This document shows, one piece after another, positions 11,947 to 38,285 of a DNA stretch of 38,714 nucleotides. Each line of letters starts with the position of its first letter. The first letter of the stretch is position 1. This DNA comes from a virus: the IMG/VR virus record IMGVR_UViG_3300042879_006171, positions 1 through 38,714 of that record. One strand, written 5' to 3'. A program made the translations under genes and the position numbers. The notes under the pieces were generated by a model. The model worked only from the letters and a program-made list of their open reading frames with translations. It did no database searches and was not told the origin of the DNA.

Positions 11947-13041
11947 TCAGCGGCGGGGCCGCAGCGGCAGCACCTGGCCGGCCGGGGCCTCTCCGAGCTG
12001 CACCCGGCCGACGGCGGCGACCAGGTCGGAGGCCTGCACCCGGCGGTAGTGCGCGAGCATTACCGACGGGGAGTGGCCGAGGAGGGCGGCGGCGGTGGCG
12101 ATGTCGACGCCCGAGCGGGCGAGCTGGTCGACCGCCAGGCGCCGCATGCCGTGCACGCTGAAGGGCTCGACCTCGCAGGCGAGGCAGGCTTCGCGCAGGT
12201 GCGCGTGCACCCGCCGCGGGCGCGCCAGGTGGCCCGTCCACGGCGGGGCTGCCTCGATCGCGGCGCGGGCTGCCCGGGGCAGCGGGAGGCGGCGCGTGCC
12301 GGTCTTGCCGCGCAGGGTGATCCAGCCGGGGGCCGTGGCGAGGTCCACGTCGCCGAGCTGCAGCGCGGCGACCTCGCCCACCCGCGCGCCCAGCGCCCAG
12401 GCGAGCCGCAGCGCCAGCCCCGCACGGGACGATCGCTGCTCCACAAGCTCGACCACGCGCTGAACCTCGTGGGGTTCTGGCGTCCGCCGCTCGGACGGCG
12501 GCACAGCCAGGCGCACGGGGGGCAGGTCGGCCGCGTCGACGAGGCCCACCCCGTGGCCCCAGCGCCAGGCCATGCGCACGATCAGCAGGACCTGCGCGGT
12601 GGCCCGGGGCCCGCGGCCGCTGCGATCGCGGAGCTCTTCGAGAGTCCGGGCGCCGACCCGGTCGAGCAGCACCGCGCCGACAACAGCGGCCGCCCGGCGG
12701 GCGTTGTCGACGTAGTGGGCGAGGGTCGCAGGGCGCAGGTCCCGCCGCGCCTCCTGGGCGCCAGCCCAGCACTCCAGGAGGTCTCCCAGCGTGGCCACCG
12801 GCGGCGCGGCGGGCGGGCCTCCGACCTGCAGATGCAGGCCTTCGGCGAGCAGAAGGGCCGCCCGCTGGACGGCCTCCCCCTGCGGGATGCGCTCCCCCCG
12901 GACCCGCGCCAGCGAGCGCGTGGACATCCGCCCGCGCTCGCCCTCCGGGTACCACTCGACCCGCCAGCGGTAGGCGGGCCCGTCGCCGGCGATGGCGCGA
13001 AGGCGGAGGGGGCCGAGGTCGACGACGGGGCGGGAGGGCAT
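11947..13041 (-). CDS. int: Tyrosine recombinase (phage integrase, 364 aa)
   Basis: Catalyses site-specific recombination between phage attP and host attB, forming a 3'-phosphotyrosine intermediate. The catalytic set is complete and well spaced: Arg220 (WALGARVGEVAAL), Lys246 (LRGKTGTRR), His297-x-x-Arg300 (VHGMRRLAVDQL), His323 (LLGHS) and nucleophile Tyr332 (AHYRRV). A core-binding domain covers about residues 83-170 and an N-terminal region of about 80 residues could bind arm sites. The length is usual for the family. The ATG is preceded by GGAGCTGACCCCC. It is the last conserved gene of the leftward operon, 28 bases after the kinase-like gene, and next to the candidate attP. It shows the phage is temperate. 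Confidence 0.95.
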   Translation of the reverse strand: MPSRPVVDLGPLRLRAIAGDGPAYRWRVEWYPEGERGRMSTRSLARVRGERIPQGEAVQRAALLLAEGLHLQVGGPPAAPPVATLGDLLECWAGAQEARRDLRPATLAHYVDNARRAAAVVGAVLLDRVGARTLEELRDRSGRGPRATAQVLLIVRMAWRWGHGVGLVDAADLPPVRLAVPPSERRTPEPHEVQRVVELVEQRSSRAGLALRLAWALGARVGEVAALQLGDVDLATAPGWITLRGKTGTRRLPLPRAARAAIEAAPPWTGHLARPRRVHAHLREACLACEVEPFSVHGMRRLAVDQLARSGVDIATAAALLGHSPSVMLAHYRRVQASDLVAAVGRVQLGEAPAGQVLPLRPRR

Positions 13042-17183: not shown

Positions 17184-17855
17184 TCAGCGGGTGCGGGCGG
17201 CGTACTTGGCGGCGATGGCTGCGCGGGCGCCTTCCTGCACCTGGAAGGCGTCGCCGAGGGTGCGCAGGCCCGCGCGCTCGAGCAGCGGAAGCATCGCGCC
17301 CAGCACGTGGGCGGTGGCGAGGGCGTCGGCGCCCGCGTCGTGCGCGCCGTCGAGCTGCACGCTGAGGTGCGCGGCGACGTCGACGAGGCGGTGCCGGCGC
17401 AGGCCGGGCAGCACCCGGTGGGCCAGGAGCATCGCGTCGAGGGCCAGGGGCGGCTCGGCGCTGCGCGGGAGGCCCTGGGCCTGCCGGATGAAGTGGACGT
17501 CGAAGGCGAGGTTGTAGCCGGCGGAGACCCGCCGGCCGACGGCGTCGCGGAAGGCCGGCCACACCGCCCCCCAGCCCGGCAGCTGGCCGGCGGCGCGCAG
17601 CTCCGCGAGCCGCTCGGTGGTGATGCCGTGCACGCGGGACGCGGCGACCGGCACCTCGCAGCACGGGTCCACCATGGACCGGTAGACCACGGCGGGCACG
17701 TCCTCGCCGAGGGCGTGGTGCACCACCGCCACCTGCAGGATGCGGGCCCCGCCCTCCCAGGGATCGAGGCCGGTGGTCTCCAGGTCCCAGACCGCGAGGG
17801 GCAGGCCACGGAGCGGGGTCTCGGGCGGGAGGCCCTGGGGGAGGCGGGGGGTCAT
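17184..17855 (-). CDS. DEDDh 3'-5' exonuclease, DnaQ-like (223 aa)
   Basis: Removes nucleotides from 3' DNA or RNA ends with two metal ions. All three motifs are present: ExoI Asp24-x-Glu26 (VWDLETTGLD), ExoII Asp119 (GYNLAFD), ExoIII His172 and Asp177 (AHDAGAD), in the order of the DnaQ epsilon family. About 150 residues of the domain plus a helical tail. The ATG overlaps the Sak4-like gene's stop (ATGA), a common recombination gene pair: ATPase that anneals or pairs strands plus nuclease. Proofreading for a host polymerase is less likely because the phage has no polymerase here. Confidence 0.9.
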   Translation of the reverse strand: MTPRLPQGLPPETPLRGLPLAVWDLETTGLDPWEGGARILQVAVVHHALGEDVPAVVYRSMVDPCCEVPVAASRVHGITTERLAELRAAGQLPGWGAVWPAFRDAVGRRVSAGYNLAFDVHFIRQAQGLPRSAEPPLALDAMLLAHRVLPGLRRHRLVDVAAHLSVQLDGAHDAGADALATAHVLGAMLPLLERAGLRTLGDAFQVQEGARAAIAAKYAARTR

Positions 17856-18829
17856 CGCGCCTCCGGCGCGGCCGGGGTGGCCGCGACCGGCTGCAGCGCC
17901 GCCCGCACCGCGGGGTCGTTGCGCACCGTGCGGTACGCCGCAGCCAGCGCGGCGCGGTCCAGCTCGGCCAGCGGCTTCCCGTGCGCCTCGACGAGCCAGG
18001 CATCCAGCCGCTCGGGGTCCACACCCAGCTCGGCGAAGGCGTCGCCGGCGCTGGCCGGCTTCTTCTGCTCGCCGCGCCAGCGCGCGGCGCGGTCCTCCCA
18101 GCGCATCGCCGTCATCAGCGCCTTCGCGCTCACGTCCAGCTCGGCGGGCAGCGGGTACCGCGACTTCGCGTCGAAGGCCGGCTCCTTCTGCGTGAAGAGA
18201 CGGCGGACGGCCGCCACCGCCTTCCCCTTGTCGGTGGCCTCGACCCGGCGCTTGCCGGTCTTCACGGTGGTGTCCCAGCCGGCGAAGAGGACCAGGTCCG
18301 CCCAGGCGCTGATCAGGGCCGCGCTCTTCTGGTGCATGCGCGGCTGGTAGCGGTCATACGAGGGCCCGCTGGGGTCGTTGAAGGCCTTGACCTCGCTGTG
18401 CCCGATGAGGAGCACCGCCACCCGCTGGCGCAGGCGCAGCGCGTCGAGGTCGCGGAGCAGGTCCGACCAGGCCTCGGCGGCGGCGGTGTAGCCCTTGCCG
18501 AAGCCGCCGCCGACGTCCTCGATCGACGAGGCGCCTGCCTGGTCGCAGAGCCAGGCGTGGAGCATCTGCTCCATGCGGGTCACGGAGTCGATCACGATGG
18601 TCTGGTAGCCCTCGGCGCCCCCGGTGAGCTCGCGCACGGCGGAGCGCAGCTCCGGCCAGCTGGCGATCTGGACGCGGTCAAGGCTCAGGTCGCCCGCGCC
18701 GTCCTCGGAGGAGAGGAAGAGGGCGCCGGGGAGGCCGGCCCCGAGGGTGGTCTTGCCGATGCCCTCCTGGCCGTACAGGAAGGCGCGGGCGGGGTCCTCT
18801 TGGGGGCCCCGCTGGATCTTGAGGCTCAT
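17852..18829 (-). CDS. AAA/RecA-like ATPase, Sak4-type recombinase (325 aa)
   Basis: Walker A lies at residues 20-28 (GQEGIGKTT) and Walker B at 77-81 (TIVID). The texture, with a long core and a C-terminal helical region, matches phage Sak4/AAA_24 ATPases, single-strand annealing or RecA-like proteins that drive phage recombination and repair. The N-terminus MSLKIQRGPQEDPARAFLYG is typical of this family. The ATG is preceded by GGAGCTGACCAC, formed within the last codons of the upstream gene (ATGA overlap). With the exonuclease downstream and the RuvC-like and RdgC-like proteins on the other strand, the phage has its own recombination kit. Confidence 0.75.
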   Translation of the reverse strand: MSLKIQRGPQEDPARAFLYGQEGIGKTTLGAGLPGALFLSSEDGAGDLSLDRVQIASWPELRSAVRELTGGAEGYQTIVIDSVTRMEQMLHAWLCDQAGASSIEDVGGGFGKGYTAAAEAWSDLLRDLDALRLRQRVAVLLIGHSEVKAFNDPSGPSYDRYQPRMHQKSAALISAWADLVLFAGWDTTVKTGKRRVEATDKGKAVAAVRRLFTQKEPAFDAKSRYPLPAELDVSAKALMTAMRWEDRAARWRGEQKKPASAGDAFAELGVDPERLDAWLVEAHGKPLAELDRAALAAAYRTVRNDPAVRAALQPVAATPAAPEAR

Positions 18830-20579: not shown

Positions 20580-20903
20580 CTACCGCAGGTGGCGGGCCAG
20601 GATGTCGAGCTCGGCCTCCCAGATCTGAAGCTGGTGCGGCTCAAGCGACCCGACGACGGCCCTGAACTTGTCCAGGACGCGCTGCGCGTCCGGGCTTAGC
20701 GCAGGGCGGTCGGAATGGTCCTCCAGCTGCAGATTGACGCCAACCGCGGCGGCGTAGCGCTCGACGTCCGAGAGCTTGGGGTCACGCCTTCCAGCTTCGA
20801 TGTGCGAGACCATCGGCCGCGACAGACCAACGCGGCCGGCGACCTCGGTGACGGTGACGCCGCGCTCTTCTCTGGCGCGACGCAGGCGGTTCATGATGCT
20901 CAT
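20580..20903 (-). CDS. XRE-family helix-turn-helix repressor (107 aa)
   Basis: Likely maintains lysogeny or regulates the early promoters. Residues about 6-60 are a standard XRE/lambda-repressor HTH: LRRAREERGVTVTEVAGRVGLSRPMVSHIEAGRR in part, with the recognition helix RPMVSHIEAG. A helical C-terminal part (LEPHQLQIWEAELDILARHL) may dimerise. No LexA-type cleavage domain, so induction would not be by RecA self-cleavage. The chosen start is the ATG at 20903 (MSIMNRL); the ATG three codons later is possible, and neither has a strong site. It lies divergent from the second regulator at 20977. Confidence 0.85.
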   Translation of the reverse strand: MSIMNRLRRAREERGVTVTEVAGRVGLSRPMVSHIEAGRRDPKLSDVERYAAAVGVNLQLEDHSDRPALSPDAQRVLDKFRAVVGSLEPHQLQIWEAELDILARHLR

Positions 20904-20939
20904 GCGCGCCGGATACCCGGCCAGCGCTTGCGCGGTCCG

Positions 20940-20954
20940 GTTCCCAGTGGTAAC
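20940..20954. promoter_or_regulatory. Weak operator-like site O4, GTTCCCAGTGGTAAC
   Basis: An imperfect inverted repeat sharing GTTCC on the left and AAC on the right with the O1 consensus. It lies 17 bases (centre to centre) from O3 in the divergent gap. It may be a weaker site or chance. Confidence 0.35.
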
Positions 20955-20956
20955 CA

Positions 20957-20971
20957 GTGACTGACAGGAGC
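20957..20971. promoter_or_regulatory. Operator-like site O3 in divergent regulator gap
   Basis: The minus strand reads GCTCCTGTCAGTCAC, matching O1 at 12 of 15 positions. On the plus strand it contains AGGAG, the ribosome binding site of the gene starting at 20977, so binding here could block both transcription and the start region. The repeat ties the divergent gap to the leftward promoter operators. Confidence 0.6.
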
Positions 20972-23350: not shown

Positions 23351-23380
23351 TGGATGGGCCGGGAGGCCCAGGGAGGACCG

Positions 23381-25072
23381 ATGGCGATGTTCAAGCAGGG
23401 CAAGGCGCTGAAGGCGCACCTCTACGACCCCGCGGGGTCGTGGACCAACGGGGTGGACCTCGCGGCCGCGCTGCGCCGCGTGGTCGAGGGCGGCACCGAC
23501 GTGCTGCTGCCCTCGACCCCCGACGACGACGGCGAAGACGTCGCCGGCGTGCCTGAGCTGCGGTGGCTCGGCAACGGGCCGACCTGCAGCCGGTGGTACC
23601 TCCCCGGCCGGCGCGACTGGGGCGACGACCCCCGCCGCGGCGCCATCGTCGAGGCGGGCAGCTGGAACGTGGTCGGACGGGTGACGTGGAAGCGGGTGCC
23701 CCCGCCGCGCTCCGTGGTCCGCGAGATCGCGCTGCACCGGGTGCCCGTGGTCCGCCGGGATGCCGGGGTCGACGAGGCGCGGGAGCGGCGCGAGCGGGTC
23801 GAGGAGGCCCTCTTCGACGAGCTCACCCGCGCGTCTATCCCCGTCGCGAGCTTCGCCTGGGTCGCGCTGTCGACGACCGGGCGCCTGGTCCTCGCCGGGC
23901 CGGGTGGCGACCGCGACCAGGCGCTGGCGGAGCTCCGCGGCCGGCTGTCGGCGGTCGTGGGGGTGCAGCCCGCGGAGGTCCGCTTCGTGCCCCGCCTCTC
24001 CGCGCTGCCGGAGGTCGTCGGCGGCGACCTTCTGGCCCGGATCAGCAAGGCCTGCGTCGAGTGCCAGGTGCTCTACTACGTGCCGGAGGGCGCTCGGGAA
24101 GGCGGCCTCGACCCGATGCACTGCAGCCGGGCCTGGGCGCTGTCGATGGGCGGCACGCTGCGGCTCGGGGGCGCGGACGGCTCGCTCTCCGCCACCGGCG
24201 GCCTGGCCGACCGGGTGGGCGCCCGGCTGGAGGAGCTTCACGGCTCCGGCGGCCTGCTCGAGGCCGCGGGCCCGGTGGGGCGGCTGGCGATCGTGGTCCG
24301 CGAGCTCACCGGCTCGGAGCTGGAGTACACGATCGTGCTGGCCGGCGACGGCACGATCGCCCAGGCGATGTCGCACTGCGCGCCCGCCGACGAGGGGGGT
24401 GCCACCGACCGCGCGGCCGAGCTGGCGGGCGAGGCCCTGATCGACCTCTCCGACCTGGAGCACGTCTACGACATCGTCGACGGGCTGCGCCGGACGCTGG
24501 TGCGGCAGCTCGACCTCGCGGCGGCCGATCACGGCTGGCTGCTTGCGCCCCTCGACGAGTACGCGGTCGAGCACGTTCGCTACGTCAGCGGCGTCGACGA
24601 GGGCAGCAACCGGCTGCGGCTGCCCCCGGTGCCCCCGCGGGAGGGGGTGGTCGACCGGGTCGCGCTCACGCGCACCGAGGCCGCGGTCACCTTCGCCGAG
24701 GCCGTCGCGGGCCTCCAGGAGGGCGGGAGCACGAGGGTGACGATGGAGTTCGTGACCCCCGCCGCGCCCCCCGCCGCGCCCCCGGCGCCCCGCGCTGCTC
24801 GGCCGATGGGCATGTGCCGGACCTGCGAGCGTTCGATGGAGCTCGGCGAGGACTGGCGCCTGCCCCCGCACGACTGGCGGCGGGCCCGGTGCGCCGGGTC
24901 CGGCTCGCAGGTGCGGCCGGTCGGGGGCGACTCCGCGGCCGCGCCGGCCGTTCCCCCGACCCCGCCGTCGAAGAAGAAGGCCAAGGTCGAGGACACCGGC
25001 GGCCGCGTCTTCGTCGCCCCCCCCTCGCCCGCCCCCGACGCGGGCGACGACCTGCCCTGGGGGGCCCCGTGA
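23381..25072 (+). CDS. RdgC-like recombination protein with SSB-type tail (563 aa, tentative)
   Basis: The start is the ATG with GGGAGG six bases upstream; an in-frame ATG at 23354 is earlier. Residues about 150-215 resemble the RdgC ring-protein pattern: a hydrophobic strand FAWVALSTTGRLVLAG, then a helix QALAELRGRLSAVVGVQP. RdgC is a DNA-binding ring protein that affects RecA. Near residue 478 there is a cysteine set (MCRTCERS and RCAGSG) and a Lys-rich stretch. The last residues GDDLPWGAP resemble the acidic SSB C-terminal tail (DDDIPF) that recruits repair proteins. The sequence between is divergent, so this call is tentative. Confidence 0.4.
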   Translation: MAMFKQGKALKAHLYDPAGSWTNGVDLAAALRRVVEGGTDVLLPSTPDDDGEDVAGVPELRWLGNGPTCSRWYLPGRRDWGDDPRRGAIVEAGSWNVVGRVTWKRVPPPRSVVREIALHRVPVVRRDAGVDEARERRERVEEALFDELTRASIPVASFAWVALSTTGRLVLAGPGGDRDQALAELRGRLSAVVGVQPAEVRFVPRLSALPEVVGGDLLARISKACVECQVLYYVPEGAREGGLDPMHCSRAWALSMGGTLRLGGADGSLSATGGLADRVGARLEELHGSGGLLEAAGPVGRLAIVVRELTGSELEYTIVLAGDGTIAQAMSHCAPADEGGATDRAAELAGEALIDLSDLEHVYDIVDGLRRTLVRQLDLAAADHGWLLAPLDEYAVEHVRYVSGVDEGSNRLRLPPVPPREGVVDRVALTRTEAAVTFAEAVAGLQEGGSTRVTMEFVTPAAPPAAPPAPRAARPMGMCRTCERSMELGEDWRLPPHDWRRARCAGSGSQVRPVGGDSAAAPAVPPTPPSKKKAKVEDTGGRVFVAPPSPAPDAGDDLPWGAP

Positions 25073-25488
25073 GCGGCTTCGTCTTCGTCTCGGTCCCGCT
25101 GGGCGACCAGCTGGCGGCCGAGCGCGCTGAGGCGCTGGTGCAGCTCGCCATCGCGATGGGGCGGGCGCCCATCCTGCCCCCAGCGGCCCTGGAGAGCGAG
25201 GGCCGGTACAGCCTGGCCAAGCTCGTCGGCGCCTCGTCGCACGGTCGGATCTGGCTGCTGCAGCGCGACGACGGGCGCCTGCCCCCCGTCCAGGACATGG
25301 AGCTCCGGGTCTGGCGCATGCAGGCGCCCCCGGCCCGCGCCCGTCTGGCGGAGCCGGAGCTCGCGCTGAGCTGGGGCGGCTGGCGCGCGCGCTTCGCGCG
25401 GGCTGGGATCGAGGACGTCTGGCTGGGCACCAGGCCCGCGTCGGTCCGCGTCCCCCACCTCTCCGTGATCGAGGGGGACTCCCCGTGA
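25069..25488 (+). CDS. Hypothetical, possible deoxyribosyltransferase-like fold (139 aa)
   Basis: A GTG overlapping the previous stop begins the gene. The pattern VFVSVPLGDQ near the N-terminus, then GRAPILPPAAL, then GRIWLLQRDDGRL and a closing MELRVWRMQ, resembles the phage DUF4406/DUF7768 group related to nucleoside deoxyribosyltransferases. The likeness is by pattern only. It overlaps the resolvase gene by 4 bases. Confidence 0.4.
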   Translation: MSGFVFVSVPLGDQLAAERAEALVQLAIAMGRAPILPPAALESEGRYSLAKLVGASSHGRIWLLQRDDGRLPPVQDMELRVWRMQAPPARARLAEPELALSWGGWRARFARAGIEDVWLGTRPASVRVPHLSVIEGDSP

Positions 25489-26039
25489 GCAGCCGGTGGG
25501 CGCTCGGGGTGGACCCCGGCTCCGAGGGCGCGGCCGCCCTCGTCGAGCTCGGGCGCGCCGGCGCCCACCTTCGGGGCCTCTGGATCGTCCGCCAGCCGGA
25601 GGCGCGGTGGCACCGCTGGGCGATCCAGGCCGCGACGGAGGCCCGGGCGCGGGTCCCCGCCGGGCACGACCTGCGCGCCTTCGTCGAGCGCCCCCCGGCC
25701 ACCTTCCGCGCCGGCAGCATCCCCGGCCTGAAGCGGGGGCACCGCGCCTGGGCTGGCCTCGGCGCGTGGCAGGGCGCGTGGCGGGGGCACCTGGCCGCGC
25801 AGGGGTGGGCGGTCGAGCAGGTCGAGGTGCGCGACTGGATCGCCTCGACCGGCGTCGCGAAGAGCAAGGCCAAGGCGGGCGGGGAGGCCGGGCGCGTCCG
25901 CGAGGCCGACTTCCTGGTCTACGACTCGGGCCCGGCCCTCGCCGAGATCGTCCGCGTCAAGCTCCGGGGCGATGCCGCGGAGGCGGTCCTGATCGCGCTG
26001 CACGGCTGCCTTTCGCAGCCGCGCCGGGGGGCGGCATGA
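25485..26039 (+). CDS. RuvC-like Holliday junction resolvase (184 aa)
   Basis: Cuts branched DNA, and in phages resolves recombination and replication intermediates. RNase H-fold acidic residues appear in order: Asp10 (LGVDPGSEGAA), Glu68 (FVERPPA), and Asp163 with Glu166 (GDAAEAVLIALHG). Length and spacing fit phage RuvC/RuvC-like proteins. A GTG overlaps the previous stop. It belongs to the rightward early recombination and replication cluster. Confidence 0.8.
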   Translation: MSSRWALGVDPGSEGAAALVELGRAGAHLRGLWIVRQPEARWHRWAIQAATEARARVPAGHDLRAFVERPPATFRAGSIPGLKRGHRAWAGLGAWQGAWRGHLAAQGWAVEQVEVRDWIASTGVAKSKAKAGGEAGRVREADFLVYDSGPALAEIVRVKLRGDAAEAVLIALHGCLSQPRRGAA

Positions 26040-26377
26040 GCGTCTCCCTCGCCCTGCTCTCGACGGCCTGCGGCCTCATCGCCGGCGTGCTCCTCACGCT
26101 CGCCCTGCAGGAGCACGTCTACCGGCGGCGCAAGCCCCCCGCCGCGGGCCTCGCCATGCTCCCCCGCCCCCCCGCCGCGGCCGACCCGCGGGTCGTCGAG
26201 CTCTTCGAGGACGGCGCGGCCTTCGCCCGCGACGAGCACTGGGAGGCGGCCGCCTACGTCGCCATCCGCCGTGGCCAGTACGTCTACGCCTTCCGCCGTG
26301 GTGACGCGCTTCACGCTGATGCCCGGCTGTTTCACGCGCTGCATGCCCTGCAGCGCGAGCTCGAGTGGAGTCGGTGA
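26036..26377 (+). CDS. Membrane-anchored small protein (113 aa)
   Basis: ATG overlapping the resolvase stop (ATGA). An N-terminal hydrophobic segment (LALLSTACGLIAGVLLTLAL) is followed by basic residues (YRRRKPP), so it is anchored with a cytoplasmic C-terminus or is a signal anchor. The rest is polar, with repeated AFARDEHWE and VYAFRRGDAL. No family recognised. It is out of place among DNA enzymes, so a membrane-linked role in replication or exclusion is possible. Confidence 0.5.
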   Translation: MSVSLALLSTACGLIAGVLLTLALQEHVYRRRKPPAAGLAMLPRPPAAADPRVVELFEDGAAFARDEHWEAAAYVAIRRGQYVYAFRRGDALHADARLFHALHALQRELEWSR

Positions 26378-27678
26378 TGGGATGGATCCCCGTGGACACG
26401 AGCTGGTGGGAGGGCGTGGTCGACGCCCTGATCACCGCCGCTGCGACCTGGCCGGAGGGCGCCCAGCTGGCCGACCTCCGGTGGTGGGAGGACCAGGTGC
26501 GCATGGGCCGCGCGCTGGTGCCCTCGCGCCGGGCGCTGGCCGCCCGGTGGCGGGTCTCGGAGCGCCGGGTGCGCGACCTCCTGGCCTCGCTGTCGTGGCG
26601 GGACCAGCGGGCCGCGTCCGCGCTCGGCGACGCCCCCTTCTGCGCAGAATGCGCGCCAGCTGCGGATGGCCCACGACTGGCCCAGCCGCGGCCCAGCTGC
26701 GGCCCAGCGGCTCGCCGAGAAGCCGCACGGCCACGGGTAGACACCCCTGTCAGCGGCCCACTCTTGGCCCAGCGGTGGCCCAGCGGTGGCCCAGCGCCTC
26801 TCCACGATCAGCCGCTGCGGCCAATCGTGGAGGCCTCTCACACTGCACAGATCACACACACCTCATGCGCTCCTTCGGAGCGCAGCGCGCCGGAGCCGGA
26901 GCCGGTCCAGGTGTCGCTGCCCTTGCGGCCCCGCATCCGGGCCGCCACCGAGGGGGACGCGCCGCGGGTGGAGCCCGCCTCCCGCCCCCGGCGGCGCCCC
27001 GTGCCGCTCTCGGCGGAGGCCCGGGAGACCTGGGCCGCCCTGCAGGCGGAAGCCCGCCGGCACGACCCCGCGTGGCGGGAGGTCGCCGTCGACCCGCACG
27101 CCGCGTCCCTGCTCGCGGCGCTGCGGCTCGCCGGACAGGCCGGCGCCCCCGCTGGCCTCGGCGCGGGCGAGGCCCTGCTGACCGCGTGGCGGTGGTGGTG
27201 GACGGGCCCGGAGCGCTACTGGCGCGAGCGCCGCACGGGCGCCGACGCGCTGCTCACCCTCCTGCGGCCGGCGACGCTCGGGCAGCACGGGGTGCTCGAC
27301 CGCGCCCTCGACTGGGCGGCGCGGGCCCGGCGCCCCCGGCCGGAGGCCCCGCCCGCCGCCGCCTGGAGCCCGCCAGCGGCCGCGGTGCCGCCGACCCAGG
27401 CCGGCGCCTGGACGCAGCTCGACGAGGGCGCCAGGGCGGCGCTGCGTGCGCGGGCGGAGGCGGAGCTCGGCGCCGGGCTCCAGGCCTGCACGGACCCGGT
27501 TAGCTGGCGGGAGCTGGTCGAGCTCCGGGCGGCCGCCCTGGCCGGGGGCGCGGTCATCCCCACCCCGGCAGTGTGGTCCCCCCCCCCACCCCGGGGGCCC
27601 CAATCATGTCCGGTCTCGCGCGCGACCCAGTCTCAAAAACCTGATCTCCACGGCGCCGTCGACGGCCGCGCCGCCTGA
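26377..27678 (+). CDS. Replication initiator-like protein containing putative origin (433 aa)
   Basis: The start is the ATG with GGAG seven bases upstream and an ATGA-type overlap; GTGs at 26365 and 26374 are possible. The N-terminal 75 residues form a winged helix-turn-helix (RRALAARWRVSERRVRDLLA), as in phage replisome organisers (lambda O/DnaD-like). The middle is long, low-complexity and poorly conserved-looking, and the C-terminal half is helical. In that middle the DNA carries 11-bp direct repeats (26668-26711 and 26755-26798), followed by a locally AT-richer stretch, the arrangement of the lambda origin inside gene O. I infer that this protein starts replication at its own gene. It ends close to the packaging genes. 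Confidence 0.65.
   Translation: MGWIPVDTSWWEGVVDALITAAATWPEGAQLADLRWWEDQVRMGRALVPSRRALAARWRVSERRVRDLLASLSWRDQRAASALGDAPFCAECAPAADGPRLAQPRPSCGPAARREAARPRVDTPVSGPLLAQRWPSGGPAPLHDQPLRPIVEASHTAQITHTSCAPSERSAPEPEPVQVSLPLRPRIRAATEGDAPRVEPASRPRRRPVPLSAEARETWAALQAEARRHDPAWREVAVDPHAASLLAALRLAGQAGAPAGLGAGEALLTAWRWWWTGPERYWRERRTGADALLTLLRPATLGQHGVLDRALDWAARARRPRPEAPPAAAWSPPAAAVPPTQAGAWTQLDEGARAALRARAEAELGAGLQACTDPVSWRELVELRAAALAGGAVIPTPAVWSPPPPRGPQSCPVSRATQSQKPDLHGAVDGRAA
26668..26711 (+). repeat. Iteron array 1: four 11-bp repeats GGCCCA
   Basis: Copies begin at 26668, 26679, 26690 and 26701, exactly 11 bases apart. The last three start GGCCCAGC; the first reads GGCCCACG. Eleven bases is about one helical turn, so a protein could bind each on one face. 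Because 11 is not a multiple of 3, successive copies fall in different codon frames, so the constraint is on DNA and not on the protein. Confidence 0.7.
26755..26798 (+). repeat. Iteron array 2: four 11-bp repeats GGCCCA
   Basis: Copies begin at 26755, 26766, 26777 and 26788, again 11 bases apart, with GGCCCAGC in the last three and GGCCCACT in the first. It lies 87 bases downstream of array 1 and in the same codon phase, with matching peptide (GPRLAQ... against GPLLAQ...). The two arrays together look like initiator binding sites. Confidence 0.7.
26819..26872. other. Locally AT-richer stretch next to iterons
   Basis: From about 26821 to 26870 the sequence is close to 42% A+T by hand count, against a visibly much lower average here, with CACACTGCACAGATCACACA inside. 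Lying just after the iterons, it could be the DNA-unwinding element of an origin. Confidence 0.5.
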
Positions 27679-27687
27679 GAGTGCCCG

Positions 27688-28377
27688 ATGCGCCGGACTC
27701 CCGCCGCTTCGCCGCCCTCGACCCCGCCCGCACCCGCGCGCAGGAGCTCGAAGGCCTCCACCGCCGCCTCTGACGCCGCTCGCCTCCGCGAGCTCCAGGC
27801 GCGGGTGCGGTGGTGGACCGCGCACCTCAAGCGCTTGGCTGGCGAGGTCGAGGACGCCAGCGGCAAAAGGGTCTCGGCCGCCCGGGCCGCCGACGTGTAC
27901 CAGGCGCGCCGCGCGCTCGAGGAGGCCATCGACGCGGTGCACGCGCACCGTGAGGCGCAGCGCCTGGCCGCCGAGCACGACCCGGAAGCGCGCGCCGCGC
28001 GGATGACCGCGATGGCGCTGGCCGCCGGCTCGCACGTTGCCGCGGGCGCGCATGAGCGCCAGCTCCAGACGCTCCGGGCCGCACGGGAGGACGCCGAACG
28101 CGCGGCGCAGGAGGCAGCCGCCGCCCGCACCACGCCCACCGTCGCCTTCGAAGCGCTGATCGAGCGCTGCGTCTCCCTGCCCGACGCGCTGCGCCGGCGA
28201 CTCGCCGACGCCCTGGGCGCGACCGTCCACGTGGTGGCGCCCCCCGCCCCGGCCCCCGCGCCCGACGAGGCCGAAGCGCCCGAGGCGCCGCCCGCCGCGC
28301 CCACGCCGGCGGTGATCCGCCCCGCGGCTCCGCCGAAGACCGGCCCGACGATGCCGGAGCCTCGGCGGCAGGTGTGA
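27688..28377 (+). CDS. Putative small terminase subunit (229 aa)
   Basis: Directly precedes and overlaps the large terminase gene (GTGA), where the small subunit is expected; small terminase recognises phage DNA and stimulates the motor. The protein is mostly helical, with Glu/Ala/Arg-rich coiled-coil regions (about residues 35-150) and a Pro/Ala-rich end. An N-terminal HTH is not obvious. Start at ATG 27688 with a weak GAGAG upstream. Assigned mainly by position. Confidence 0.55.
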   Translation: MRRTPAASPPSTPPAPARRSSKASTAASDAARLRELQARVRWWTAHLKRLAGEVEDASGKRVSAARAADVYQARRALEEAIDAVHAHREAQRLAAEHDPEARAARMTAMALAAGSHVAAGAHERQLQTLRAAREDAERAAQEAAAARTTPTVAFEALIERCVSLPDALRRRLADALGATVHVVAPPAPAPAPDEAEAPEAPPAAPTPAVIRPAAPPKTGPTMPEPRRQV

Positions 28378-35816: not shown

Positions 35817-38285
35817 ATGGCTGATTCCGTCGTCTCGCTGGGCATCGACCTCAGCCCGTTCGAGACCGTGCTCAAGCAGGGCCTCGACGGTTTGGGCAAG
35901 GGCGCCCAGCGCGCCATCGCGCAGGCGAAGGCCGCCGCAGCCCAGGCCGCTCGGGAAGCGACGAGCGCCTTCAAGATCCAGCTGCAGCTGCAGCAGCAGG
36001 CGGCGCGCGATCAGGCCGCGGCCGCGCGCGACCAGCTGCGCGCCGAGAAGGACCTGCAGCGCGAGGCCCAGCGGACCGCGGCTGAGAAGGCGCGCGCGGC
36101 CTCGGCGCTCGCCACCCTGGCCGCCGGCCGAACCGAGACGGAGGCGCTGACCCACGCCTTCCAGGAGCAGATCAAGGAGATCGCTCGGCTGGTGGAGCTT
36201 ACCGGCGACCAGGAGGCCGGCGCGAAGGCCGCGGCCGCCGCCGCGGCCAAGCATGAAGCCGCGATGCGGCGGCTGACCGACGCGACGGTCGACAGCGCCA
36301 GCGGAACGGAGCGGGCGGCGGGAGCCAGCTACGCGCTGCGCCAGCAGGCGCAGAGCCTGCAGAAGAACCTGATGGACGTGGTGCAGAGCCTGATCGCCGG
36401 GCAGTCGCCGATGACGGTGCTGTCCCAGCAGGGGCCTCAGCTCGCCGAGGCCTTCGCGCAGGCCGGGGACTCGGCGGGGCTGCTCAAGTCCGCCTTCGGC
36501 GGCGTGGCCGGCGCGGTGGCTCCGCTGGCAAGCGCGCTGGCTGGTGCTGCGGTCGCCGGCGCCGCGCTGGGCACCGCCTACGCCGTCGTCGCCAACCACA
36601 CCGAGCAGCTGCAGACCGGGCTGATCAACCTGCGCGCCCAGGTGGACGCCTCGCGCCGGGCCATCGCCTCCGCCGCGGAGGCAGCGGCCGCGAACGCCGA
36701 GGCCCTGCGGGGCATGCAGGCCGCGGCAAAGACGGCGCAGGACGACCTGCGAGTGCTCGTCGGCACCACCTCGCGGCACGAGGTCGAGCTGCGGCGGCAG
36801 ATCGCGGCGATCGAGGACAGCACCAAGGCGCAGGTCCTCGACAACGCCCGGCGGCTGACGGCCGCCCAGCTTGCGCTCGAGCACGAGCGCGCCCTCTACG
36901 CCAACCGCGACGCCTCGATCACCGAGCGAGCCGAGGCCTCCAAGCGGATCAAGCAGCTCGAGAAGACCATCGCGGTCGAGAAGGCGGCGCTCGCCAGCGC
37001 CAAGCAGGCGGTGGCACAGCAGAAGGAGGCCGCCGCCCTCACGGCCGAGTACAACACCGAGCTCGAGGAGGCCGAGCGCCGGATCGAGCAGCGAGAGGAG
37101 GCCGAGAGCGCCGCCCGCGACGCCGCACAGCGCCGGGCCGACGCGGAGCGGGACGCCGCCGACGCGGCGAAGAAGCTGGCCGACGAGGAGGCCAAGGCTG
37201 CCGCCGCCGCCCGCGAGTGGGCCCGCGAGCAGGGCATGGTCGCGGCCGCGGCGCAGGAGCTCGGGCGCCTGGGCCCGGAGATCGAGTCGCTGATCGCGAC
37301 CCTGGAGGGGGCCACCGCGGCGCAGCTCACCCGCGAGATCCAGGCCGCCGAGGTGGCCGTGGCCGAGGTCACCCGCACCATCCGCGACGGCTTCCGCGAG
37401 GAGCTGCGCGGCGCCTACGCCGAGGTCCGGGGGCTCGGCACGGAGCTTGCGCAGTTCGGCGGCGTAGACCTTGGGGGCGGCGCCGTCAGCGCGCTGCTCG
37501 ACGTCGCCAAGCAGGCCGTCGAGGCGGAGCGCGAGGCCCTCTCCTCTGTCGCCGACGCCCGGGCCGAGCTCCGCGCCGCGATGGCCTCCGGCGACGCCGG
37601 CGCCATTGCCGAGGCCCGCGAGGGGCTCCGGGCGGCGCGGTCGGAGCTTGAGGCGGCGCGCCCGGCCGCCTTCGTGCAGGAGCTCGTGAAGGGCGCCGCC
37701 GACATGGTCAAGGGCATCGTCGACGCGCTGCCCGCGGTGGTGCGCGGGCTCACCGCGGCGGCGCCGCGGCTGATCACCTCGCTGGTCGACGGCATCCCGA
37801 AGCTGGTGCAGGGCCTTGCGCGGGCCGCGCCCGAGATCGCGATCAACCTGGCCTCTGCCCTGGCGATCGAGCTGCCGATCCAGCTGATCGCCCAGGCGCC
37901 GAAGATCGTCCGGGCGCTGGCGCTCTCCATCGGCGAGGGCTTCGTCGCGGCGGCGAAGCGCATCCGCCGCGTGATCGGCGACATCTTCCGCGAGATCGCA
38001 ACGGCCGGGCGCGCCGACACCCGCACCTTCGGCGACACCCCGGGCCCCGTGCGGGTCGGGCCCCGCGGCGCGCGGGTGTCGCCGGGCGACGTGGTGGTCG
38101 CGGCGCGCACGCGCCAGGGCCTTGAAGCCCAGCTCGGCGCCCGCAGCTCGGCGTCGTCCCCCACGGCGGTGCAGGTCGTGCTCGACGTGCGGGACGGGCC
38201 CGTGCGCCTCGGGCTTGCGACCGCCGCGCAGCGGCAGCCCGTCGACCTCTCCTTCGCGCGCCAGCGCAGCCCGTGGGGGTCCTGA
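35817..38285 (+). CDS. Tape measure protein (822 aa)
   Basis: Sets tail length and forms the channel of the tail. Very Ala- and Glu-rich, mostly coiled coil, with a lambda-type motif MTVLSQQGPQLAEAFAQAG near residue 200 followed by a hydrophobic, glycine-rich stretch (LASALAGAAVAGAALGTAYA) that may be a membrane span. Another hydrophobic helix region lies near 630-700 (INLASALAIELPIQLI). The ATG has AGGAGG. At roughly 1.5 angstroms per residue it predicts a tail near 120 nm. It ends with a one-base overlap onto the tail-tip gene at 38285. Confidence 0.88.
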   Translation: MADSVVSLGIDLSPFETVLKQGLDGLGKGAQRAIAQAKAAAAQAAREATSAFKIQLQLQQQAARDQAAAARDQLRAEKDLQREAQRTAAEKARAASALATLAAGRTETEALTHAFQEQIKEIARLVELTGDQEAGAKAAAAAAAKHEAAMRRLTDATVDSASGTERAAGASYALRQQAQSLQKNLMDVVQSLIAGQSPMTVLSQQGPQLAEAFAQAGDSAGLLKSAFGGVAGAVAPLASALAGAAVAGAALGTAYAVVANHTEQLQTGLINLRAQVDASRRAIASAAEAAAANAEALRGMQAAAKTAQDDLRVLVGTTSRHEVELRRQIAAIEDSTKAQVLDNARRLTAAQLALEHERALYANRDASITERAEASKRIKQLEKTIAVEKAALASAKQAVAQQKEAAALTAEYNTELEEAERRIEQREEAESAARDAAQRRADAERDAADAAKKLADEEAKAAAAAREWAREQGMVAAAAQELGRLGPEIESLIATLEGATAAQLTREIQAAEVAVAEVTRTIRDGFREELRGAYAEVRGLGTELAQFGGVDLGGGAVSALLDVAKQAVEAEREALSSVADARAELRAAMASGDAGAIAEAREGLRAARSELEAARPAAFVQELVKGAADMVKGIVDALPAVVRGLTAAAPRLITSLVDGIPKLVQGLARAAPEIAINLASALAIELPIQLIAQAPKIVRALALSIGEGFVAAAKRIRRVIGDIFREIATAGRADTRTFGDTPGPVRVGPRGARVSPGDVVVAARTRQGLEAQLGARSSASSPTAVQVVLDVRDGPVRLGLATAAQRQPVDLSFARQRSPWGS

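Follow-up and report, generated by a model that had tools for sequence, protein, structure and literature searches.

In lambdoid phages the origin of replication lies in the middle of the O gene and consists of iterons and an AT-rich tract (PMC7466680). The SPP1 initiator gp38 binds direct repeats of oriL within gene 38, beside an AT-rich unwinding element (PMC6316719). The Rep protein of pSK41 binds four boxes inside rep by its N-terminal winged helix-turn-helix (wHTH), and the origin-encoded central part of the protein serves as a linker; the chimeric Rep of pPR9, with a phage-like HTH_36 N-terminus, makes a working replicon (PMC5703833). A search of the open-licence literature yielded no paper on 11-bp direct repeats at phage origins.

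The window analyzed here is the whole 38,714-bp stretch of an IMG/VR virus record, with a mean GC content of 75.6%. With a probability of roughly 0.8, its region 26602-26901 is a lambda-type iteron origin embedded in, and bound by the product of, its own initiator gene. The gene, delimited by its open reading frame and codon-position GC, spans 26377-27678 on the + strand and encodes a putative replication initiator of 433 aa; its ATG at 26377 shares bases with the stop codon of the ORF before it (TGATG). About 290 bp into the coding sequence, a lag-11 scan detected two arrays of four 11-bp iterons, both on the + strand: array 1 at 26668-26711 (units starting at 26668, 26679, 26690 and 26701) and array 2 at 26755-26798 (26755, 26766, 26777 and 26788). 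An earlier note on this DNA had listed eight GGCCCA starts with exact 11-bp spacing, and every one of them is where it was said to be. The arrays have the highest lag-11 identity of any 66-bp stretch in the 38.7-kb window, the raw lag-11 match of the gene (27/33) is the highest among the 30 window genes scanned, and GGCCCA at 11 bp, with 6 pairs, is the top combination of hexamer and spacing (spacings 7-59). The first unit of either array is degenerate outside GGCCCA (CGAC, CTCT). From start to start the arrays are 87 bp apart and thus do not share one 11-bp ladder. Because 87 bp is a multiple of three and the encoded peptides (GPRLAQPRPSCGPA and GPLLAQRWPSGGPA, 29 residues apart) are related, the two arrays probably go back to an in-frame duplication of a single block. 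No viral match was obtained for TGGCCAAC at 11-bp spacing, and an idealised array compared with phages by BLAST returned incidental matches only.

The earlier note had also proposed that the periodicity constrains the DNA rather than the protein and had called for a codon-shuffle test. When the gene was resampled synonymously according to the phage's own codon usage, none of 5000 recodings reached the 6 GGCCCA pairs observed at 11 bp, the maximum being 3; permutation of codons within the gene likewise gave at most 3 pairs in 5000 trials. The word indeed cycles through all three codon frames within an array, as had been claimed. Furthermore, third-codon GC falls to 0.68-0.76 over 26602-26901, the outer bounds of the proposed origin, compared with 0.92-1.0 before and after; the final 25-codon block near the end of the gene is also low (0.64). 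The codon-shuffle excess and the drop in third-codon GC together imply a constraint on the DNA itself that extends over the arrays and the AT-richer stretch that follows.

This AT-richer stretch, a candidate DNA-unwinding element of 50 bp at 26822-26871, is real, as had been noted from the letters, but modest: its GC content is 56% against the window mean of 75.6%, with a 50% core at 26836-26865. It belongs to the lowest 0.01% of 50-bp windows, and minima of similar depth occur at about ten other sites of the window. Between the last iteron and the stretch lies an imperfect palindrome (26800-26832; 16-nt arms, 88% complementary), and a perfect 8-bp hairpin is located at its far edge (26866-26884). 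The single-strand DNA fold of 26745-26885 is more stable than that of shuffles (z = -3.2). Perfect palindromes with arms of at least 9 number 31 in the window against 16-20 in shuffles, so that such arm lengths are not rare here.

The 433-aa protein has no significant match in Pfam, PHROG, NCBIfam, PDB sequences, phage tblastn or IMG/VR; a PHROG match at E = 0.0045 fell on its linker, and no Pfam RepA_N or HTH_36 model matched it up to E = 10. That no sequence relative was found, among which array conservation in close kin could be followed, counts against the origin reading. With hhalign, a profile (A3) of 16 N-terminal domains of genes for DnaD-like helicase loaders, replication initiation proteins and protein O matched residues 46-73 of the protein (E 5.9e-5, probability 65%, 28 residues matched), placing a helix-turn-helix (HTH) core at 26512-26595 (+ strand). 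The profile score was 30.2, whereas the best of twenty other window proteins scored 17.0 and none of 200 shuffles reached 30.2. The fold of the HTH core is widespread, and the match therefore shows kinship of the DNA-binding part only. An AlphaFold model made without alignment is helical and of medium confidence (mean pLDDT 69), its helices at 51-58 and 62-70 forming an HTH arrangement, and Foldseek with this model found nothing significant, with no match below E = 1. Thus, of the winged HTH ascribed to the N-terminus in the earlier note, the HTH core stands by its match to the initiator profile, but the call depends on 28 residues and a medium-confidence model; these two points and the lack of a Foldseek match are counted against the origin reading.

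When IMG/VR was searched for related arrays within genes, an initiator-like gene with repeats of GGCCAACGAAG came up, and its protein led to annotated phage genes for DnaD-like helicase loaders, replication initiation proteins and protein O. We applied the same shuffle test to 18 such relatives (significance at P < 0.05), of which one (L159) had been found via its array and the rest via protein similarity alone, a few of them being near-duplicates. A DNA-level lag-11 signal was detected in 15 of the 18, at codons 107-131, directly after the wHTH domain. One relative was borderline (P = 0.06), and the 11-bp period was absent from two, Vibrio 1.108 and PhiSepi-HH1, one of which has a 23-bp period instead. 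The relatives with the 11-bp repeat come from phages of Listeria, Bacillus, Staphylococcus, Lactobacillus, Vibrio, Pseudomonas, Cellulophaga and Klebsiella, and from HK620, and the repeat word varies by lineage (CTAACAAACAG in Listeria, ACAAATCAACA in Staphylococcus, CCATCAAGTGT in Lactobacillus and GTCCAGCCGAT in Klebsiella phages). HK620 served as a positive control: its 11-bp units (TACCAGCAGAT and variants) form two arrays of three, at 1220/1231/1242 and 1286/1297/1308, which match the position of the annotated rep_origin (1218-1313) and have AT-rich DNA behind them. The period that the earlier note proposed to look for in homologous genes is present in most members of this distant family.

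An independent profile search of about 900 genomes of four phyla gave 15 strong and 58 weak matches. Five of the 15 strong matches carry the 11-bp period, all at codons 110-124, the others having periods of 12, 22 or 24 bp or none; among the weak matches, which are other wHTH proteins, 4/58 passed the threshold and 0/58 did so within codons 100-140. In the O/DnaD-like genes L207 and L227, and L224, L225 and L228, the period at the DNA level is 12/24 or 22 bp and not 11 bp. Iteron spacing varies within the O/DnaD-like family, 11 bp being common and not universal.

The likeness to lambda O had been proposed from the sequence alone, and it gains from the alignment of the HTH to the O/DnaD-like profile and from the 11-bp repeats that this family carries at the equivalent place, including the HK620 origin. 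Like the lambdoid O genes (lambda, the Stx phages P27/933W, HK620), the window gene has iterons after the HTH and then AT-rich DNA, and HK620, with two arrays at 11-bp spacing, is the closest match to its two-array plan. Unlike the lambdoid O proteins, the window protein is beyond the reach of ordinary sequence search. Its iteron word is GGCCCA-based, each array has four units where HK620 has three, the AT bias is weak (56% GC), and a palindrome lies between iterons and AT-richer stretch. The DnaD-like initiators of Listeria, Bacillus, Staphylococcus and Vibrio phages share the 11-bp repeat (codons 107-131) followed by AT-rich DNA, but mostly have a single array and AT-rich words, and are not closely related to the window protein in sequence. 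SPP1 gene 38 with oriL resembles the proposed origin in having repeats in the initiator's own gene beside an AT-rich unwinding element; SPP1 also has a second origin, and the likeness is one of layout, repeat sequence and spacing aside. Similarly, the RepA_N initiators (pSK41) and pPR9 Rep match the proposed plan in their N-terminal wHTH, boxes in rep and origin-encoded linker, whereas these systems are Firmicutes plasmids with another repeat type, and the likeness is again one of layout.

The arrays, the DNA-level constraint, the AT-richer stretch, the HTH match and the layout of the relatives, including an annotated origin, all lead to the reading of the region as an in-gene origin. Such an origin would occupy about 200-300 bp within 26602-26901 and be built as in lambda O. 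The N-terminal HTH (core codons 46-73) would bind the 11-bp iterons, and with one iteron per helical turn the initiator subunits may line up along the same side of the helix, both four-unit arrays together giving an initiator-DNA complex. The AT-richer stretch at 26822-26871 would then melt, the C-terminal part of the protein would recruit a helicase or helicase loader, and replication would start at the arrays, the array-encoded peptide presumably acting as a linker between the two domains. The system is best read as a divergent addition to the known in-gene iteron origins of lambda O/DnaD-like type.

Judged from its sequence, the phage is temperate, with genes for an integrase (11947-13041), an exonuclease (17184-17855), a Sak4-like protein (17852-18829), a repressor-like protein (20580-20957) and a resolvase-like protein (25485-26039), and this gene set counts in favour of the origin reading. 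A methyltransferase gene lies near 22.6 kb, the gene for the large terminase subunit begins at 28374 and a tape measure gene is at 35817. The array gene is 3' of the resolvase-like gene and adjoins the terminase genes; it does not follow directly after the repressor region, and this placement is counted against the reading, as is the absence of any recognised helicase or helicase loader in the window. A 572-aa protein encoded between the methyltransferase and resolvase-like genes (23354-25072) matched nothing in Pfam, PHROGs or NCBIfam and is a candidate for the missing partner, a helicase or a primase. No relatives of the window terminase were found in IMG/VR. The cumulative GC skew of the window has its maximum near 26 kb and its minimum near 10 kb, which was also counted against the origin reading, but the skew is uninformative for the origin because third-position skew mostly tracks gene direction. 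Around 26-27 kb the GC skew turns from positive to negative and the AT skew from negative to positive among genes of the same direction; this change may mark an early/late gene border as much as an origin.

An N-terminal HTH is common in small terminase subunits, and with the large-subunit gene starting at 28374, about 1.6 kb downstream of the arrays, the repeats might be considered a packaging start, a pac or cos-type site whose direct repeats are bound by an HTH-bearing terminase small subunit. We consider this unlikely: the gene that contains the arrays encodes a 433-aa protein with an HTH of its own that matches initiators, the relatives sharing the layout are replication genes, and no match to a small terminase subunit was obtained for the gene at 27688. 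Somewhat less probable still is an autoregulatory operator, in which the HTH protein would be a transcription regulator binding repeats in its own gene. An HTH protein and phased in-gene repeats would also fit repression via cooperative binding. Against it stand the location of the arrays, about 290 bp into the coding sequence and not where a promoter would be, the match of the protein to an initiator profile, and the AT-richer stretch that follows the arrays, as suits an origin.

The repeat word itself occurs in other settings. TGGCCCA, three times at 11-bp spacing, was found in 12 viral contigs from IMG/VR and in at least 119 genome stretches. Of these 131 loci, 64 are within 400 bp of a tRNA gene, which is nearly always upstream and mostly for Met, Arg or Val, and in about 20 tRNA-adjacent loci inspected, a related tyrosine integrase is 0.5-0.9 kb off in several (L017, L025, L039, L082 and L132). 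In the series L017-L135 (e.g. L025, L039 and L132) the arrays have diverse spacers and are typically 50-200 bp from tRNA-Met/Arg/Val, in many bacteria, mostly Betaproteobacteria. To judge from this sequence context, the tRNA-side arrays are probably integrase arm sites. At first sight the arrays elsewhere resemble support for an origin; we did not count them as such, as about half are beside tRNA genes and several near an integrase. Since word and spacing also occur at integrase-associated sites, the iteron word is not origin-specific, which counts against the origin reading and leaves its case to the gene and the layout. The same loci, with at least three copies at 11 bp near tRNA genes in 64/131 and a tyrosine integrase close to several, raise the possibility that the window arrays are integrase or excisionase arm sites of the phage attachment region. 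There is little chance of this, since the window integrase (11947-13041) is 13.6 kb from the arrays and has no such array beside it, no tRNA gene was found in the window, and attachment sites are seldom buried in a phage replication gene.

Periodic words of this kind also accompany another DNA-binding fold. At L148 and L156 the coding sequence of a small ribbon-helix-helix-like gene contains GGCCCAAACAG eight times with a spacing of 11 bp, and in two IMG/VR contigs (L007 and L012) a TGGCCCA array at 11 bp stands just upstream of a ribbon-helix-helix-like gene, perhaps as its operator. Two related viral contigs (L014 and L015) have intergenic TGGCCCACATA arrays in AT-rich DNA, outside any wHTH gene.

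A protein-level repeat, to which the related peptides 29 residues apart could point, or chance in GC-rich DNA is already contradicted by the codon-shuffle result (0/5000 synonymous recodings reach the observed count, with the word in all three codon frames per array) and has a negligible probability.

By the origin reading, a phage whose replication proteins are otherwise unrecognisable gains a probable initiator and origin. As a tentative generalization, which we hold at somewhat under even odds, initiators of the lambda-O/DnaD-like fold from very different hosts may share one origin design, with 11-bp iterons in the linker codons behind the wHTH and a word that is free to vary; the window would be its GC-rich extreme, with an as yet unnamed protein family, a four-unit array present in duplicate and, ahead of a weak unwinding element, a palindrome. 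The locus indicates that an origin can be detected where the initiator protein cannot, and it suggests, with the comparison of relatives, a testable rule: to search the linker codons past the HTH domain for an 11-bp period at the DNA level. This rule could find origins in many phages with initiator genes labelled only as hypothetical or helicase loader, and the wider interest of the finding lies in an 11-bp design common to phages.
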